A DNA stretch of 34,940 bases from Actinomycetota bacterium (GTDB taxonomy: Bacteria; Actinomycetota; Thermoleophilia; Gaiellales; Gaiellaceae), in assembly GCA_005885245.1 (NCBI GenBank), contig VAWR01000002.1, forward strand, positions 1-34,940. The letters are read 5' to 3'. The notes below the pieces were generated by a model. It was given only the letters and a program-made list of their open reading frames with translations. It had not been told where the DNA came from and ran no database searches. The position numbers and the translations under genes were made by a program. This document shows positions 25,956-34,926 of the stretch, one piece after another (position 1 is the first letter of the stretch; every line of letters starts with the position of its first letter).

Positions 25956-26084
25956 GGCACCGCAATTTAGCGGAAGGGCCCAAGGCGCGGCCTTGCAGCG
26001 CCCCGTGGATGCCGCCGTGCGAGCTTCGCGTGCGCGGCCGTCCGATGCACCGCTGGGATGGAGAACCAACCGCCGCTTCCAATC

Positions 26085-26101
26085 AAATTGCAATTTATGC
26101 T
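26085..26101 (+). promoter_or_regulatory. fabI promoter: AT-rich palindrome overlapping the -10 box
   Basis: AAATTGCAATTT (26085-26096) is a perfect 12-bp palindrome in a very GC-rich region. The -10 hexamer TATGCT (26096-26101) shares its last base and ends 6 nt before the fabI ATG. A repressor bound to the palindrome would block the promoter. No known operator was recognised. Confidence 0.5.
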
Positions 26102-26107
26102 CGCGCA

Positions 26108-26887
26108 ATGACTGGGACCTACGAGGGGAAACGCGGTTTGGTTCTCGGGGTCGCGAACCGCAGGTCGATCGCCTGGGCGATCGCGAAGCGGCTTGCCGAC
26201 GCCGGCGCGGAGCTCGCGTTCACCTATCAGGGCGATCGCATCGAGAAGAGCGTGCGTGACCTCGCGGGCTCTGTGTCGAGCCCGCTCGTGACGGAATGTG
26301 ACGTCCGCTCCGACGAGGACGTCGCGCGGGTCTTCCAAGAGGTCGGCGACGCGTTCGACGGTGGCCTGGACCTACTCGTCCACTCGGTCGCCTTCGCGGC
26401 GGCCGAAGATCTCGAAGCGCGCTTCACCGACACGCCGCGCGAGCGCTTCTGGATGGCGCTCGACGTCAGCGCGTACTCGCTCGTTGCCTGTGCTCGTGCC
26501 GCCGAGCCGTTGATGGAGGCGCGCGGCGGCGGTTCGATCCTGACGATGACGTACCTCGGTGGCGTACGGGCGGTGCCGCACTACAACGTGATGGGCGTCG
26601 CCAAGGCGGCGCTCGACGCCTCGATGCGCTACCTCGCGTGGGACCTCGGAGAGAAGAACATCCGGATCAACGCCATCTCCGCCGGCCCGGTGCGCACGCT
26701 GGCCGCTCGTTCGATCGCAGGTTTTCCGACGATGGAGGCGATCGTCGAGGAGCGGTCGCCGCTCCATCGACACATCGACGCCGACGACGTCGGCGCGGCT
26801 GCGGCCTACCTCCTTTCGGAGGACGCGCGCAACGTCACCGGTACGACGTTGTACGTGGACTCGGGATATCACGCGATGGGGATGTAG
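26108..26887 (+). CDS. fabI: enoyl-[acyl-carrier-protein] reductase (NADH)
   Basis: FabI reduces the trans-2-enoyl-ACP double bond, the last step of each fatty-acid elongation cycle. The 259-residue protein opens with the FabI-type cofactor loop GLVLGVANRRSIAWAIA instead of the usual SDR TGxxxGIG. HSVAFA follows. The active site contains TYLGG and Tyr159-x6-Lys166 in HYNVMGVAKAALDASMRYLA, the wide spacing diagnostic of FabI. It ends GTTLYVDSGYHAMGM as in the family. The ATG at 26108 is favoured over in-frame upstream starts because the promoter -10 ends 6 nt before it and no Shine-Dalgarno is present, so it is probably leaderless. It is monocistronic and divergent from the protease. Confidence 0.94.
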   Translation: MTGTYEGKRGLVLGVANRRSIAWAIAKRLADAGAELAFTYQGDRIEKSVRDLAGSVSSPLVTECDVRSDEDVARVFQEVGDAFDGGLDLLVHSVAFAAAEDLEARFTDTPRERFWMALDVSAYSLVACARAAEPLMEARGGGSILTMTYLGGVRAVPHYNVMGVAKAALDASMRYLAWDLGEKNIRINAISAGPVRTLAARSIAGFPTMEAIVEERSPLHRHIDADDVGAAAAYLLSEDARNVTGTTLYVDSGYHAMGM

Positions 26888-27861: not shown

Positions 27862-30800
27862 TCAGCCGACAGCGCGGCGGCCTACGAGCGAGACGATCTC
27901 GTCGACGTCCGGCGCTGCGAGCAGCTGTGCTGCGCGCTCGGGAGCGAGCGTGGCGACGAATCCCTCGACCAGATCTCCGGCCTCGCCGTACGCCGCCGCT
28001 GCGGCCTCGTCGTCCCCGAGCTCGTACGAGACTTTGCCGAGGACAGCTCGGGCTTGCCAGCGTGCCGGTGGACCGACCAGCTCGTCCGCGAGGACGACGG
28101 CGGAACTGAGGGCCTGCAAGGCCTCGTCGCGGCGCCCGAGCTTCGCGAGCGCCTGCCCCAGGATCTCCAACGAACGGGCTTCGTACTTTCGCCGCTTCGT
28201 GCGGCGTGCGATCTGGATCGCACGCTCCGCCCACTCGGCTGCTGACTCGGGCGACTCGGCGTGCAAGGCGATTTCAGCCTTGCTGCAGGCGAGCCGGCCG
28301 GCGATCAGCCAGGTCGTCCAGGCGGTGGCTTCGGCGGCCCCTTCCCAGAGGGCCGGCCAGGAGGCCTGAGCTTCGCCGATATTCCCGGCGAGCATTCGGG
28401 TGAGGAGCAGGTCGGAGCCGGCGAACTGCCTGGGCATGCCGAACCCACCCGCGGGTGAGAGCGACAACGCTTCTTCGCTGCGGTTACGCGCTTCATCGAG
28501 GTCGCGCAGTTCCCGATAGATCAGGGCGGAGTAGTTGAGCAAAACCTGACGGGGCTGCCCAAGCTCTCGCGCGATCTCGAACAGCTCGTCGAAGATGACG
28601 ATTGCTTCTTCGTGACGGCCCAGGCCGGCGAGGGCGAGCGCCTCGAGTCCGCCGCCACGCAGAAGGGACTCCGCACTGTGAACGTCGCTCGCGACGGCCC
28701 GCGTTCGTTGCGAAAGCCCGATCGAGCGCTCGTACCGGCCGGCCCAGTACAACGCATCTGCGTGGAGATGCAGATGCTGCCTCAGGTCGAGAGGCCTCGT
28801 TCCCGGGACCCAGAGGTCGAGTGCACGATCGCCGAGTTCGAGGGCCTGGTCGATGTCGTCCTCCTCCTTCCCCCGCATCGCGAGGGCCTGGCTCTTCGCG
28901 GCGAGCGCTGCTGCCACCGCGGTCTCGTCGCCCACTTGCTTCGCCAGCGGCAACGCCTCCTCTGCGAGCGCAAGCGTCACCGCGTCCTGTTCGGTCCACA
29001 GCGTTGCGTGCGCCCGCGCGATCAGTACGTCCAGCCTCTGTTGACCTTCTAGCTCGGGCAGCAACTCGCGGAGCTCCTGGTCGGCGCTCGGGTAGTCGGC
29101 CAGCTCCACGAGTGCAAGGCCCCGCTGCATGCGGATGCTTCGTCGCAGGTCGTCGTCTTCGGCCAGCTCGAGGGCTCTCGAGTAGAGATCGACCACGGCG
29201 CCTTTCGCCCAGCCGCGGCGGGCGGATTCGGCAGCGGCGAGCAGATATGGAATCGCCCGCGCCGGCTCTCCGGCCTCGCGCCAGTGGTAGGCGAGGATCG
29301 CCGAGAGGGTTTCCGTAGCACCGGCGATCGTCTCCTCGACGTGGCGCGCAACGGCGGCGTGACGCTCCCGCCGTGCGGCGCGCGGGACGATCGAGTAGGC
29401 GACCTCCCGGATGAGCATGTGCTTGAACGTGAACTGAGGATCTGCGGACAACTGGGTCGACGGATCGCGGCGGACGAGATCGCGGGCCTCCAGGACCGCA
29501 AGCGTCTCGTCGACGTCCTCGACTCCGCCCGCGGCCTGAAGGACGCCGCGCCAGAACGTCTTGCCGATCACGGCGGCCGAGAGCAGGGCGCTGCGCGCAT
29601 CGGCGGGCAGCGCGTCGATTCGTCCCGAGATCGCCTCCCTGACGGTGACCGGGAGGTCGTCGCGCCCGCCGAGCTCGACCACGGAGGCCGCGAGCTCCTC
29701 GAGGAAGAGGGGGTTGCCGCCCGCCACCTCGACGAGGCGCGCGAGATCGAACGCGCCCTCGTCGGCGGGGACGAGCTGGGCGGCCAGCGCCTCGGCTTCG
29801 TGAGGTGGAAGAGGCTCGAGGGGGATGGTCGTCTGCGCGGCGAGTCCGCTACCCCACGTCGGCTGCAGGTCGAGCAACTCCGGCCGAGCGGCGGCCACGA
29901 GCATCACCGGAGAATCGCGGACGTGTTGTGCGAGGTACTCGAGAAGGGCAATCTCGCTGCTTCGCGCCCAGTGAATGTCCTCGAACACGAACACTGTGGG
30001 CTGCGCGAGGCCCACGCACTCGATGAAGCGCCGCGCCGCGAAGAACAGCAGCAAGACCTGCGGCACGTCGTCGTCCGGAGCGAGCCCGAGCAGAAGCGCG
30101 AGATAGCGGAATGTCTCCGCCCACTCGTCCTGCGGCAGGACCTCTTCCACCGTGTGCTGCAGCTTTTCGCGGGCGACGTCAGGAGGATCGGACTCGAGGA
30201 TGCCGCTCGCTTCGTACACCAGGCGCGAGAACGCCTGATAGCCGGCCTGATCCTCGTAGGGCAGACAACGGCCGCGCAGGATCCTGCCGCCATCCGCTTC
30301 GACGAGCGCCGCGATCTCCCGGCACATGCGCGACTTGCCGATCCCAGGCGGTCCGACCAGGGTGATCAGGTGCGGTCGGCGCTCCGTGAGCGCTTGGCTC
30401 CAGACCGAGCGCATCAATTCCAGCTCCCGTACCCGGCCGACGAGGGCCTTGACGCCGGCGGGCCGTTCGGAAGGGGCGAGCACAGGCTCCACGGCGAGCC
30501 ACGCCTCGACCGCCTCCGCCTTCCCTTTGGCCTCGACGGCCGCGAAGGCGGTGTAACGGATCACGTGGCGCGTCGCGCGATGCGTGGCGGTTCCGACGAT
30601 CAAGCGTCCCGGAGGCGCCGCCGACTGGAGCCGCGACGCAGTGTTGACGACATCGCCGGTCGCCAGCGCCCCGCCGTCCTGAGCGGCGTCCAGGGAGACG
30701 AGCGCGTCGCCGGTGTTCACGGCCGCACGCGCGGCCAGATCGAGGGCGTGCTCGCGATTGAGCTCGTCGATCCCTTCGAGAACGCGCAGGCCGGCGCGGA

Positions 30801-31152
30801 CTGCGCGCTCCGCGTCGTCTCCGTGCGCGACCGGTGCGCCGAACACGGCCATGACAGCGTCGCCGATGAACTTCTCGAGCACGCCTCCGTGCTGCTCGAT
30901 CTGCCGCTTCGCGCTCGCGTGGTAGAGCTGCAAGGCGTCGCGGACGTCTTCGGGATCGGCCTGGTCGGAGCGCGCGGTGAACCCGACGAGATCGACGAAC
31001 AGGACGGACACGAGCTTCCGCTCCTCACGGGGCGAGGCTGCGACCTCGAGCCGCGCGCCGCAGCTGTTGCAGAAGCGTGACTGGGCCGGATTCCCTGCTC
31101 CACAACTCGCGCAGAGCAGAGGCCCTGCCTGCGCAGCCTCCGGGCTCGTCAT
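27862..31152 (-). CDS. class III nucleotide cyclase / AAA ATPase / TPR-like signalling protein
   Basis: This is a cytoplasmic multidomain protein of 1096 residues. Residues 14-31 form a zinc ribbon with two CxxC pairs (CASCGAG, CNSCGAR). The class III cyclase domain (about 45-225) has metal-binding Asp54 (LFVDLVGFTA) and Asp98 (KFIGDAVMAVFG), substrate-specifying Lys94 and Asp167, and transition-state Asn170 and Arg174 (GDVVNTASR). Lys plus Asp favours ATP over GTP. An AAA/STAND-type ATPase follows, with Walker A VGPPGIGKS (267-274) and Walker B VFVFEDIHWA. The remaining 500 or so residues are Ala/Leu/Glu-rich helical repeats, TPR-like. The layout is common in actinobacteria and is thought to couple a sensed signal to cAMP. 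The start ATG at 31152 has CACACT 7 nt upstream and a TTGGCA 17 bp further up. Confidence 0.88.
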   Translation of the reverse strand: MTSPEAAQAGPLLCASCGAGNPAQSRFCNSCGARLEVAASPREERKLVSVLFVDLVGFTARSDQADPEDVRDALQLYHASAKRQIEQHGGVLEKFIGDAVMAVFGAPVAHGDDAERAVRAGLRVLEGIDELNREHALDLAARAAVNTGDALVSLDAAQDGGALATGDVVNTASRLQSAAPPGRLIVGTATHRATRHVIRYTAFAAVEAKGKAEAVEAWLAVEPVLAPSERPAGVKALVGRVRELELMRSVWSQALTERRPHLITLVGPPGIGKSRMCREIAALVEADGGRILRGRCLPYEDQAGYQAFSRLVYEASGILESDPPDVAREKLQHTVEEVLPQDEWAETFRYLALLLGLAPDDDVPQVLLLFFAARRFIECVGLAQPTVFVFEDIHWARSSEIALLEYLAQHVRDSPVMLVAAARPELLDLQPTWGSGLAAQTTIPLEPLPPHEAEALAAQLVPADEGAFDLARLVEVAGGNPLFLEELAASVVELGGRDDLPVTVREAISGRIDALPADARSALLSAAVIGKTFWRGVLQAAGGVEDVDETLAVLEARDLVRRDPSTQLSADPQFTFKHMLIREVAYSIVPRAARRERHAAVARHVEETIAGATETLSAILAYHWREAGEPARAIPYLLAAAESARRGWAKGAVVDLYSRALELAEDDDLRRSIRMQRGLALVELADYPSADQELRELLPELEGQQRLDVLIARAHATLWTEQDAVTLALAEEALPLAKQVGDETAVAAALAAKSQALAMRGKEEDDIDQALELGDRALDLWVPGTRPLDLRQHLHLHADALYWAGRYERSIGLSQRTRAVASDVHSAESLLRGGGLEALALAGLGRHEEAIVIFDELFEIARELGQPRQVLLNYSALIYRELRDLDEARNRSEEALSLSPAGGFGMPRQFAGSDLLLTRMLAGNIGEAQASWPALWEGAAEATAWTTWLIAGRLACSKAEIALHAESPESAAEWAERAIQIARRTKRRKYEARSLEILGQALAKLGRRDEALQALSSAVVLADELVGPPARWQARAVLGKVSYELGDDEAAAAAYGEAGDLVEGFVATLAPERAAQLLAAPDVDEIVSLVGRRAVG

Positions 31153-31211
31153 GACCTCAAGTGTGGCGGGTCGGTCAGCCTGTGCCAAATCTGGGGTCCG
31201 GGGGCGCGGTT

Positions 31212-33164
31212 TCACCGAGTCGATGGGGCCGACCAGCCGATCCGGGTCAACTGCAGCCCCACCCGCTTGCTCCCTCCTTCGGCCTCGACGAGTCGCGGGA
31301 CCTCGACGGTCACCAGATGCCAGTCTCGTTTGCCCGCGACGAGCGTCTTCCGTCCATCGACTGTCACGCGGCGCGGCAGCGGAGAAGACGCGAACTCGAG
31401 CTTCAACCGACCGGCTCCGTAGATCCAGAACGGGGCGTGCGTCTCGCTCATGTAGCGACCCGAGCCGGTGTGCCCGAACCACCCCTGACAGAAGATCGGC
31501 CTCGTGTGGACGGGTTCGCTGCGCTTCGGCAGGAAGCCGATGCTGTTGCGCTCGAAGAGCCAAACCGGGCCCGCGGTCCTCTGCACCGACCAGCCGTGCG
31601 CGAGGAGTCCACGCGCAGCGAACCAGCCGGCGCTCGGCACGGCGAGGTTGCGGATGTAGAGCCCGCGATGCAGCGCGATCGAGCGGACGCCCAGCCGGTC
31701 GAGCTCGGCTGACATGCCGCCGCTCCAGTCGCCGCAGTTCAGGCGTTGCAGGCGATCGGCGATCGCCTTCGCCTGCGTCGGCGCGGTGGTGGAGTAGCCC
31801 GCCGGGCGTTGTCGCTGCGCTGCGGTGTCGTACCAGAGGTAGACGCTGCCGTAGTGGATGCCGGGATCGAAGATCGGGAGTTCCAGCAGCCGTCCGGCAG
31901 CCAAGGGCACGGCACCGTCCGGATCGCCGGGCGCCGATTTTCCGTAGACGCGTGCGTGGAGGTCGACGAGCAAGAGCGCGACTGCCAGGAGTGTCACGAC
32001 CGTGCGGCGCGTCTGCGCGAGCGCAAACGCAAAGAGTGCGGCGACGCAGAGGCAGGCAATCGGCAGCAGGCGCTCCGGTACGCGGGGAAAACGGAAGGGC
32101 GGTAGGGCGTGCCAGATCGCCGAGTAGACCGGTGTCCGCGTGCCCAATGCGAGCACGATGGGGACGGCGGCACCGAGCCCGAGCAACGCTGCCAGTGCGA
32201 ATCGGCGGGCGCGCAGGAGCACCACGAGGCCTGCCAGCGCAACCAGCGGTGTCGCCCACCCGAGGAAGACGAATTGCTCGCTGCGGGCGTGATCCACGTG
32301 TCGCGACACGAAATCCCCCACCCGGGCCGAGTAGAACGAGATCTCGTCGAGGGAGCGGCCGCCGGACTGCGTCGAGCTCTTGATCACGGTCTGGCGCACG
32401 ACGATGCCTCCGGCAATCGCGGCCAGCGTCGCGACCGCAGCCCCGACGAGCAGCAGTCGGTCGCGCGTTCGGCAAAGCGCATACGCGACAAAGAACGGGA
32501 TGACGCCGAGCGCAAGATGCACCTGCCCGGACAAGGGGATCGAGGCAACTGCAGCCCCTGAGAGGAGCAGCCACCAGGCGCTTCCGCGGCGTGCGCGCTC
32601 GAACGCCCAGAGCGTCAGCGGGATCAGGATCGAGATCGGACCGAGGAGGTGACCGATACTCTGTTCCACGCGATAGGGCGCGATGGCGAACGCGAGCCCG
32701 CCTGCGAGCGCGGGTCCGCGCGGCAGCCCGAGCTCGCGCAGCCACGCGGACGCCGCCAGTCCGGCGAGGCCGTACAGGAGGAGCTGCAAGACGTTCCAGC
32801 CGCCGACGAGCCCGAACGCCGCCGCCAGCGGCCAGAAGAGGAGGCCGAACGGCCAGCCGGGGTAGTTGGGCTGTGGCTTCGCCTCGGGCCGGAACGTATA
32901 GGGGTCCCGCCACGGAGCGCGGCCGTGCTCGAGCTGATGTCCGACGAGCCAGTAGTGATAGAGCGTCTGTAGGTGGTCTCCAGGAGAGGCCTCGCCGTGC
33001 GCGGGAGCACCTCCGGAGAGGAAATGCGAACGAGCATGCAAGACCGCCGGCCAAGTGGCTGCGACCCCAGCCGTCAGGTACAGCGCAGCCCCGAGCGCTA
33101 CATAGCCTGCGCGGCGCGAAGCAGCTCGTCGAAGTCCGGCACCTCGGCCGTGTCGTAGCGCCAT
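31212..33164 (-). CDS. multi-pass membrane protein, GT-C/YfhO-like
   Basis: This is a protein of about 650 residues. The N-terminal two-thirds hold roughly ten hydrophobic segments with an early luminal loop GDHLQTLYHYWLVGHQLEHG followed by WRDPYTFRPEAKPQPNYPGW. That arrangement, with an acidic residue in the first outer loop, is reminiscent of GT-C fold glycosyltransferases and YfhO-like proteins that use lipid-linked sugars. I cannot assign a donor or acceptor. The last 200 or so residues are soluble and beta-rich, probably extracellular. The ATG at 33164 overlaps the peroxiredoxin gene by 67 bp; a later start is possible but the first membrane segment begins soon after that overlap. It lies in the minus-strand run ahead of the cyclase gene. 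Confidence 0.7.
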   Translation of the reverse strand: MALRHGRGAGLRRAASRRAGYVALGAALYLTAGVAATWPAVLHARSHFLSGGAPAHGEASPGDHLQTLYHYWLVGHQLEHGRAPWRDPYTFRPEAKPQPNYPGWPFGLLFWPLAAAFGLVGGWNVLQLLLYGLAGLAASAWLRELGLPRGPALAGGLAFAIAPYRVEQSIGHLLGPISILIPLTLWAFERARRGSAWWLLLSGAAVASIPLSGQVHLALGVIPFFVAYALCRTRDRLLLVGAAVATLAAIAGGIVVRQTVIKSSTQSGGRSLDEISFYSARVGDFVSRHVDHARSEQFVFLGWATPLVALAGLVVLLRARRFALAALLGLGAAVPIVLALGTRTPVYSAIWHALPPFRFPRVPERLLPIACLCVAALFAFALAQTRRTVVTLLAVALLLVDLHARVYGKSAPGDPDGAVPLAAGRLLELPIFDPGIHYGSVYLWYDTAAQRQRPAGYSTTAPTQAKAIADRLQRLNCGDWSGGMSAELDRLGVRSIALHRGLYIRNLAVPSAGWFAARGLLAHGWSVQRTAGPVWLFERNSIGFLPKRSEPVHTRPIFCQGWFGHTGSGRYMSETHAPFWIYGAGRLKLEFASSPLPRRVTVDGRKTLVAGKRDWHLVTVEVPRLVEAEGGSKRVGLQLTRIGWSAPSTR

Positions 33165-33556
33165 GCGCCGAGGACCGTACCGTCCTCGTCGACGAGGAAC
33201 GCGCTCCTCTCGGCTACCGCTTCGTGGCCGCGGAACTCGCCCTCGACGCCGAATGCTTGCATCGCCTCCCGATTCCAGTCCGACAACAGCGGAAAGCTCA
33301 GTTCGAGCGCCTGCGCCCAGGCAATGTGCGTCCACTCCGAGTCACCCGAGATGCCGAACGGACGAACGCCCGCCTGTTCGAACTCCGCGCTCCTGTCACG
33401 CAGGAGCTCCATCTCGTGCGTTCAGGTGGAGGACCAGTCGAAGAGATAGAAGAGAAAGAGCGCGCGCCCGTCGCGGACGAGCTCCTGGATCGATCGTCGC
33501 TGGTGCGGCGCGGTCCAGACCGACGCAGCAGGAACCCGGTCGCCGACTCCCAGCAT
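33098..33556 (-). CDS. peroxiredoxin (AhpE-like) with selenocysteine encoded by in-frame TGA
   Basis: Peroxiredoxins reduce hydroperoxides with one essential Cys. Reading through TGA at 33424-33422 gives a continuous 152-residue protein: MLGVGDRVPAASVWTA, then FLFYLFDWSST-Sec45-THEMELLRDR, then FGISGDSEWTHIAWAQAL, FPLLSDWNREAMQAFGV and ERSAFLVDEDGTVLGAW. Residue 45 is exactly where AhpE-type enzymes carry the peroxidatic Cys, with Ser at -3. There is no other Cys, so it would be a 1-Cys-type enzyme with Sec. A hairpin with a GU loop starts 14 nt after the TGA. Without readthrough only a 104-residue piece without active site could be made from the ATG at 33412. A sequencing error or a decayed gene is the alternative, but both flanks are well conserved. 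Confidence 0.82.
33389..33407 (-). promoter_or_regulatory. candidate bacterial SECIS element
   Basis: On the minus strand GCTCCTG pairs perfectly with CAGGAGC around the loop CGTGA. The loop begins 21 nt after the TGA, within the 16-37 nt window known for bacterial SECIS hairpins, and contains the GU that SelB recognises. The stem is in the coding sequence and is read through as LLRDRS. Confidence 0.7.
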
Positions 33557-33623
33557 GGCGCGGAGCCTACTGCGCCAGCTGAGGCTCGACCGCGACCTCC
33601 GTCGCGTCGCTTGCTTCGCTCGC

Positions 33624-33656
33624 TCCCTCAGGGGAAACCAGGTTTCCCCTGAGGGA
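33624..33656. repeat. 16-bp perfect palindrome with 1-bp spacer
   Basis: The left arm TCCCTCAGGGGAAACC and right arm GGTTTCCCCTGAGGGA are exact reverse complements around a single A. An RNA copy would be a very strong hairpin. It shares GGGGAAACC and GGTTTCCCC with the palindrome at 33721-33744 and resembles that at 7851-7876. Confidence 0.85.
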
Positions 33657-33720
33657 CCCCTTCTTCAGGTAACGCCTTCGCAGCTGCGTCGTACCGCCGG
33701 GTCTGCGAAGGAATTCGATG

Positions 33721-33744
33721 CGGGGAAACCTCCCGGTTTCCCCG
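33721..33744. repeat. 10-bp palindrome CGGGGAAACC-TCCC-GGTTTCCCCG
   Basis: This is a perfect inverted repeat with a TCCC loop. The palindrome at 7851-7876 has the same loop on the opposite strand and one base difference in the core of each arm, so the two are related elements. It may also act as the terminator of the ybdK gene, which ends 34 bp away. Confidence 0.7.
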
Positions 33745-33777
33745 GAGCCCCTTCCCCCGCGACAGAGGTCGTCGTGA

Positions 33778-34926
33778 TCACGTAACAGCGGTTGGCACGC
33801 CGGCGACCTCCGTCGCGTCAGCGATCTCGCTCACGACCTCGACGATGTCGTGGTTCGCGTTGAAGACGCGAAGCTGCCGGTCGGCGCCGTTCCCGTTCGC
33901 GAGGATCTCCTCGATCACCTCGAGCTCTCGTTCCGTGCCGAGCTCGCGAGCGTGTGGCTCGATCTCCTTGAGCGTCCTGCGGATGAGCTGCCCGACCGGG
34001 ACGCGGTTGCGCCGTCCCGTCGCCAGATCCATCAGCGGCGCCTCGAGGCCATATCGCCCGGCGAGCCACTTGTTCTCCGTCGTGAGGATCCGGTGGTAGG
34101 ACGGGATCTCCTCGCCGCGCTCGAACCGTTCGGAGTACAGCTTCACGAGTGCCTGGCAGTAGGCGACGAGCGCGACGACGTGCTCCATCCGCGTGACCGC
34201 GTCGCAGATGCGGACCTCGATCGTCCCGAGCCGCGGGTGCAGGCGGATGTCCCACCAGATGTGCGAGTAGTCCGCGATACAACCCGTCTTCTCGAGTTGG
34301 CCGACGACCTCCGCGTAGTCCGCGTAGCTCTCGAAGCGGGGTGGGGGACCCGAGCGCGGAAAAGCAGCGAACACCATCTGGCGGCTCGAGCGCAACCCGG
34401 TGGGCTCGCCGCGCCAGAAAGGTGAGCTCGCAGACAGCGCCAGCAGCGGTCCGAGCTGCGGGAGGAGCCCGTTGACGACCTGGATCGCCTTCTCGGCGTC
34501 GTCCACGGCCACGTGGATGTGTAGTCCGAAGATGAGCTCGCGACGCGCGACGTACTGCATCTGATCGATGAGGGCGCGGTAGCGGTCCCGGGCGGTGATG
34601 CGCTGGCGCTCGAAGAGGCTGAACGGATGCGTTCCGGCCGAGCCCACGCGCAAGCCCTGATCTCGTGCGACCCCACACACGTAGCCGCGGATGCGCAGCA
34701 GCTGATCGGCGACCTCTGCAGGGGTGTGGCACACGGGCGTCGCGATCTCGAGCACGGATTGCATCAGCTCGGGGTTGATCACAGTCTCGAGCTCGTGACC
34801 CGCGACGGCGGCGAGGACGGTGTCGATGTGTTGCACCAGGTCGAAGGTCTCGCCGTCGAGCAGCATGTATTCCTCCTCGACGCCCAACGTGTAGGCGTCG
34901 CTCTTGCCGAAGGCGTGGTCGTACAC
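33778..34926 (-). CDS. carboxylate-amine ligase, GCS2/YbdK family
   Basis: The 382-residue protein belongs to the glutamate--cysteine ligase type 2 family. It opens YTLGVEEEYMLLD (the metal and ATP-binding Glu cluster), then PELMQSVLEIATPVC, GTHPFSLFERQRIT, LIFGLHIHVAVDD and the C-terminal DIRLHPRLGTIEVRICDA. Members join the gamma-carboxyl of Glu to Cys or another amine with ATP; the actual amine here is not known. The GTG at 34926 gives the family start, 14 bp from the window edge, so an upstream start cannot be ruled out. The last residues GVPTAVT appear to come from a repeat insertion; the pre-insertion ending was probably VEPQLAQ. The peroxiredoxin gene is next downstream, which suggests a shared thiol/redox role. 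Confidence 0.87.
   Translation of the reverse strand: MYDHAFGKSDAYTLGVEEEYMLLDGETFDLVQHIDTVLAAVAGHELETVINPELMQSVLEIATPVCHTPAEVADQLLRIRGYVCGVARDQGLRVGSAGTHPFSLFERQRITARDRYRALIDQMQYVARRELIFGLHIHVAVDDAEKAIQVVNGLLPQLGPLLALSASSPFWRGEPTGLRSSRQMVFAAFPRSGPPPRFESYADYAEVVGQLEKTGCIADYSHIWWDIRLHPRLGTIEVRICDAVTRMEHVVALVAYCQALVKLYSERFERGEEIPSYHRILTTENKWLAGRYGLEAPLMDLATGRRNRVPVGQLIRRTLKEIEPHARELGTERELEVIEEILANGNGADRQLRVFNANHDIVEVVSEIADATEVAGVPTAVT

Follow-up and report, generated by a model that had tools for sequence, protein, structure and literature searches.

The window analysed here, 34,940 nucleotides that make up contig C68 of a 3.2-Mb draft genome in 213 contigs, carries on its minus strand a peroxiredoxin (Prx) gene and, upstream of it on the same strand, a GCS2 gene (Table 1). 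Read directly, the peroxiredoxin frame opens with the ATG at 33556, closes with the TAG at 33100-33098 and holds 152 sense codons, its sole internal stop being a TGA at codon 45; direct reading and translation thus confirm an earlier note on this DNA, which had described the TGA as interrupting an otherwise intact peroxiredoxin at the position of the catalytic Cys. Residue 45 aligns to the catalytic Cys in peroxiredoxins of known structure, e.g., 2cx3, and the window protein has Cys at no other position. Mechanical ORF calling yields merely a 104-aa fragment (33412-33098) that misses the catalytic residue, as had been predicted both for the output of gene callers and for the 3′ half of the gene taken alone; standard annotation would split a Sec peroxiredoxin gene of this kind and lose its active site. 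The GCS2 gene ends in a normal TGA stop, so the UGA code is not reassigned, and we rejected genome-wide reassignment on this ground.

Table 1. Positions of the features discussed in the text, numbered from the first nucleotide of the window.
Feature	Position	Strand	Remarks
Peroxiredoxin CDS	33098..33556	minus	152 aa, proposed Sec at residue 45; PF00578 E 1.1e-23; Prx fold
UGA codon, read as selenocysteine (Sec)	33422..33424	minus	Peroxidatic residue, codon 45; TGA in 64 loci, TGC in five members
Bacterial SECIS hairpin GCTCCTG-CGTGA-CAGGAGC	33389..33407	minus	Core in 64/64 TGA loci; CGT/AGG near-fixed; lost in Cys forms
GCS2 (YbdK-type carboxylate-amine / glutamate-cysteine ligase)	33778..34926	minus	PF04107 E 1.7e-58; NF010039 above cut-off
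GCS2-Prx gap	33557..33777		Two GC-rich inverted repeats
Cyclase gene	27862..33054	minus	1730 aa; guanylate/adenylate cyclase, AAA and TPR domains
SDR gene	26009..26887		

Conservation of the TGA codon and the downstream hairpin

The same single TGA was found in the orthologue of 33 of the approximately 60 genomes searched, the window's own included, and G013 contributes a distant paralogue that also bears the TGA. A scan of GTDB r220, taking one genome per species (84,980 species genomes), returned 72 loci. The TGA forms in hand number 64 when the window gene is counted; they come from separate assemblies, and their frames are intact down to 45% identity. Nearly all are labelled as metagenome-derived genomes (MAGs) of Actinomycetota/Thermoleophilia/Gaiellaceae, many from soils and sediments, and in a class-wide sample of 249 genomes the TGA family occurs chiefly in the window's own family, with a few members in one other family (f2) of the same order. 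The alignment of homologues that the earlier note had proposed as a check has only TGA or Cys at the residue-45 column within the family. Two loci are labelled Burkholderiales and Acidobacteriota (L103 and L105), and their peroxiredoxin genes are nested in the Thermoleophilia clade; these are probably mislabelled, mis-binned or chimeric MAG records rather than cases of transfer.

A hairpin with loop CGTGA and SECIS-like spacing, which had likewise been noticed earlier, is exactly in place: its stem begins 14 nt and its loop 21 nt after the TGA, in agreement with the bacterial SECIS pattern of a hairpin close downstream with a small loop holding a conserved G (PMC1088965). The perfect 7-bp stem ascribed to it holds for the window gene but not as a feature of the family, in which the outermost (seventh) pair is missing from 18 of 60 distinct sequences. 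The core CCTG-CG(T/G)GA-CAG(G/A) is kept in all 64 TGA-bearing loci, and codons 52-55 (L-R-D-R) read CTG CGT GAC AGG almost invariably, R53 being CGT in 61 and R55 AGG in 63 of the 64; in the rest of these genes, either codon accounts for 4.6% of the Arg codons. Such fixation is not explicable by protein constraint, whereas a hairpin CTCCTG-CGTGA-CAGGAG can explain it. Because the stem is nearly invariant, covariation is weak, with a compensatory change at one pair only (a G-C/C-G exchange at 18:36; one other pair shows T-A/T-G); 94.5% of stem cells are paired, exceeding all 500 shuffles.

R1, a covariance model built on the hairpin, scored the tested TGA rows at 64-73 bits and the tested Cys rows at no more than 24 bits. 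Over the whole genome it gave one strong match, the peroxiredoxin gene itself (72.7 bits); on inspection, none of the next matches (23.9, 20.7 and 19.5 bits) was taken to be a selenoprotein gene, and the scan did not recover fdhA (see below), whose hairpin differs. No Rfam family matches the window at gathering threshold.

Selenocysteine machinery and natural Cys variants

The earlier note had named selA, selB, selD and a tRNA-Sec as genes whose absence would speak against a selenoprotein, and all four were found in the window's own genome. A single contig holds selA and selB, which score above cut-off at 517 and 315 bits; selD scores 338 bits, and the tRNA-Sec, whose anticodon is TCA, 65.7 bits. 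The full-length SelB ORF comprises the EF-Tu-like domains and beta-barrel of SelB as well as a C-terminal SelB-wing_3 domain (E 1.5e-14), the domain that reads the SECIS in known SelBs. The genome also holds a second Sec gene, a formate-dehydrogenase-like fdhA (L145, G000:C48) with an in-frame TGA within ENQARIUHSS and a strong hairpin, GGTCCCC-AGTCT-GGGGACC, a little 3′ of it. Taken together, these genes indicate that this genome decodes Sec and has a classical selenoprotein besides the peroxiredoxin. An O-methyltransferase gene (Methyltransf_2; L142:3244-4206) lies between selA and selB; the gap between the two is likewise about 1 kb in G004, G009 and G022, and they are adjacent in G001 and G028.

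Among the 33 TGA-bearing genomes, selD was above cut-off in 32 and selA in 23, with a fragment of selA or a weak edge match only in 2 more; selA was not detected in the other 8, two of which (G030 and G034) are about 91% complete. These genomes are drafts, fragmented MAGs in which selA, selB and tRNA-Sec often share one contig, so that one missing contig removes all three together, and we take the absence of selA in the 8 as probable incompleteness, though in some it may be real; this is the main weak point of the Sec reading. Three genomes that are 91-97% complete (G018, G026, which is a single contig, and G027) have no orthologue, no selA and no selD above cut-off.

Five members of the family carry TGC in place of TGA: L111 (G032), L124 (G187), L136 (G196), L137 (G046) and L176 (G123). 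They are single ORFs that keep the LRDR protein motif with other codons, which break the stem or the loop; of the four scored with R1, L111, L124 and L136 reach at most 24 bits, and no site was reported for L137. In the tree, L111, L137 and the pair of L124 and L136 each branch separately within the Sec clade with good support, and L176 takes a fourth place that the tree does not resolve. The simplest account would be a single gain of Sec followed by three or four Sec-to-Cys reversions, each accompanied by decay of the hairpin, and such independent reversions are natural replicates from which to learn why Sec is kept and what a SECIS needs. No selA was detected in G123, which has the Cys form and is 93% complete. 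The Cys paralogue of G046 (C105:2828-3217; L137, L175) has a TAA in its 5′ part and a Sec copy elsewhere in the genome; it is probably a decaying duplicate or has a later start.

Subfamily and relation to known Sec peroxiredoxins

The protein scores 84 bits with PF00578 (AhpC/TSA), for which the cut-off is 26, and AlphaFold2 models, made with the window protein and 46 relatives, have a peroxiredoxin fold (pLDDT 96.5) with Sec45 at the N-terminal end of a helix spanning residues 43-61. The predicted fold compares with known structures at TM 0.80-0.92, PrxQ/BCP and related AhpC/TSA proteins being closest (3hjp, 0.92), and sequence matches are led by the PrxQ/BCP entries 2cx3, 3hjp and 2ywn (best 2.8e-20, 2cx3). 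The earlier note had called the enzyme AhpE-like, which we do not uphold: Mycobacterium AhpE (1xxu, 4x0x) belongs to the same superfamily, and its 1-Cys-type catalysis makes it a useful functional comparison, but it matches more weakly (44.6 bits, E 1.3e-10) than PrxQ/BCP, whose entries score above it by sequence and fold. The window protein thus appears nearer to a PrxQ/BCP-like fold, although the curated PrxQ/BCP profiles stay below their cut-offs (NF006960, 53 against 140 bits; NF053650, 44.6 against 260).

The active site is in part unusual. Position -7, the Pro of the PxxxT/SxxC(U) motif, is Leu in 62, Ile in 1 and Pro in 1 of the 64 Sec proteins; the Pro, which to our knowledge is near-universal among peroxiredoxins, is present in the Cys forms L124 and L136. 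Its replacement by Leu means that catalytic competence is not guaranteed, and the combination of this change with Sec in a nearly universal motif poses a direct question for enzymology. Position -3 is Ser in 58 and Thr in 6, the active-site Arg117 is invariant in the alignment (A2), and 53 of the 64 proteins have no Cys whatever. PrxQ/BCP proteins of Aeropyrum pernix (2cx3, 4gqf) and Sulfolobus solfataricus (Bcp4, 3hjp) share the placement of the catalytic residue on the helix; 2cx3 differs in its catalytic Cys, its motif Pro and a further Cys at +5, which is absent from the window protein.

That Sec peroxiredoxins exist in bacteria, as stated in the earlier note, is borne out by a Sargasso Sea survey (PMC1088965), by PMC1794560 and by a review (PMC13188914), which establish a "Prx selenoprotein" class with PF00578, a T/SxxU motif and Sec/Cys pairs between homologues; the motif as reviewed is PxxxTxxU (PMC13188914). 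Compared with the TxxU proteins of these surveys, the present family is LxxxSxxU, mostly Cys-free, found in Thermoleophilia and often located beside GCS2. PrxU of Eubacterium acidaminophilum (NF040737) shares with it Sec in place of the peroxidatic Cys, the AhpC/TSA fold, the T/S-x-x-U motif and a SECIS that lies within the coding sequence, but is of another peroxiredoxin subfamily (the window protein reaches 35.9 bits, where the cut-off is 270), and in the window protein the motif Pro is Leu. In the literature searched, which leaves out most subscription journals, we found no paper on a Thermoleophilia LxxxSxxU Sec peroxiredoxin family, nor anything relevant on selenocysteine in Thermoleophilia; the kind is already known, and the lineage-wide Thermoleophilia variant is, as far as could be found, undescribed.

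Two other lineages were seen in passing. L171-L174 (G064, G074, G139 and G133) form a separate Thermoleophilia peroxiredoxin lineage with the canonical reading YPLDWTPV-TGA, i.e., PxxxTxxU, and each of the three genomes tested for selA (G064, G074 and G133) has it; they are an independent group of predicted Sec peroxiredoxins. L170 (G211) and L169 (G013) are peroxiredoxin-like proteins whose active site is preceded by an insertion (FDFTGSPEGG-TGA); their Cys relative L179 (G027) reads GSLEKGQGC, and they may be a third Sec peroxiredoxin family.

Alternative explanations, proposed function and gene neighbourhood

We are highly confident that this is a true bacterial selenoprotein gene and that its product is a 1-Sec peroxiredoxin with a PrxQ/BCP-like fold, in which UGA-45 would be decoded via SelB, tRNA-Sec and the hairpin. 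The earlier note had reached the same view, and it is supported by the machinery, by the TGA/Cys column, and by a hairpin that is conserved beyond the needs of the protein and lost with the change to Cys; recoding of UGA-45 itself appears near certain from sequence comparison. In a contig from a MAG, one stop within the frame could be a misread TGC or TGT or a disabling mutation, and such errors are common a priori, but the same TGA recurs in 64 loci of separate assemblies with intact frames, together with a nucleotide-level hairpin that is missing in Cys forms; we rejected sequencing error and pseudogene because TGA and hairpin are conserved across species, and consider their probability negligible. 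One could also envision a true stop followed by a restart, giving a 44-aa peptide and a 104-aa protein from the ATG at 33412, which lies three codons past the TGA and opens the ORF that callers report. This ATG, however, is Met in 35 of the 64 loci and Leu (24), Val (4) or Phe (1) in the remaining 29, the fragment is without the catalytic residue, conservation extends over both halves in a single frame and the Cys forms run through as single ORFs, making a restart extremely improbable. The TGA in 64 loci, the conserved hairpin, the rare codons, the Cys variants and the lack of detectable selA in G123 all argue strongly against error, pseudogene or a real stop. The inserted residue is not readable from the DNA, and with Cys at this column in relatives, UGA might be recoded to Cys or another residue rather than Sec, through near-cognate readthrough or a Cys-loading tRNA; against this stand the full Sec machinery (tRNA-Sec(TCA), SelA, SelB with its wing domain, SelD), the SECIS spacing and the presence of fdhA, and we judge it very improbable.

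A further alternative concerns function only, namely that a Sec protein of peroxiredoxin fold serves mainly in something other than peroxide reduction, e.g., as a redox sensor or thiol transferase. The prevalence of Leu at -7 (62/64) and the lack of Cys in 53 of 64 would fit such a role, but Ser or Thr at -3 in all 64, the invariant Arg117, the standard fold and the persistence of Cys revertants with the same pocket argue against it; we regard this role as unlikely, if worth keeping in mind, and peroxidase activity as likely. As a Sec peroxidase, the protein would work as follows. SelB and tRNA-Sec would decode UGA-45 as Sec, guided by the hairpin 14 nt downstream, and the selenolate, which lies where the active-site helix begins and has Ser42 (or Thr) and Arg117 around it, would attack H2O2 or an organic peroxide, reducing it to water or alcohol and becoming a selenenic acid. 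Since most members have no second Cys, the selenenic acid would be resolved from outside, by a small thiol or thioredoxin. With this family, a class of soil actinobacteria that are for the most part uncultured gains a well-supported group of selenoproteins.

The reductant is hinted at only by the association with GCS2, which lies upstream of the peroxiredoxin gene on the same strand, at a gap of -4 to 221 nt, in 28 of the 66 loci with upstream sequence; in 23 of those 28 the gap is at most 13 nt or the genes overlap, and 27 loci have no GCS2 near the peroxiredoxin gene. GCS2 is likely an operon partner in relatives, and its frequent presence suggests a gamma-glutamyl thiol or similar as the reductant. 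We offer only tentatively the fuller picture of a ligase-peroxidase operon of soil Thermoleophilia, in which a 1-Sec peroxidase that has exchanged Pro for Leu and lost all Cys would be recharged by a small thiol from the adjacent GCS2; it is possible, though we do not favour it.

In the window, the gap between the two genes is 221 nt and holds two GC-rich inverted repeats (of the GGGGAAACC...GGTTTCCCC type); a T-run terminator was sought there and none was found. On the other side, the cyclase gene separates the peroxiredoxin gene from an SDR gene, which is found near the peroxiredoxin gene in about 30 relatives, and the cyclase gene itself has weak matches in just a few relatives.
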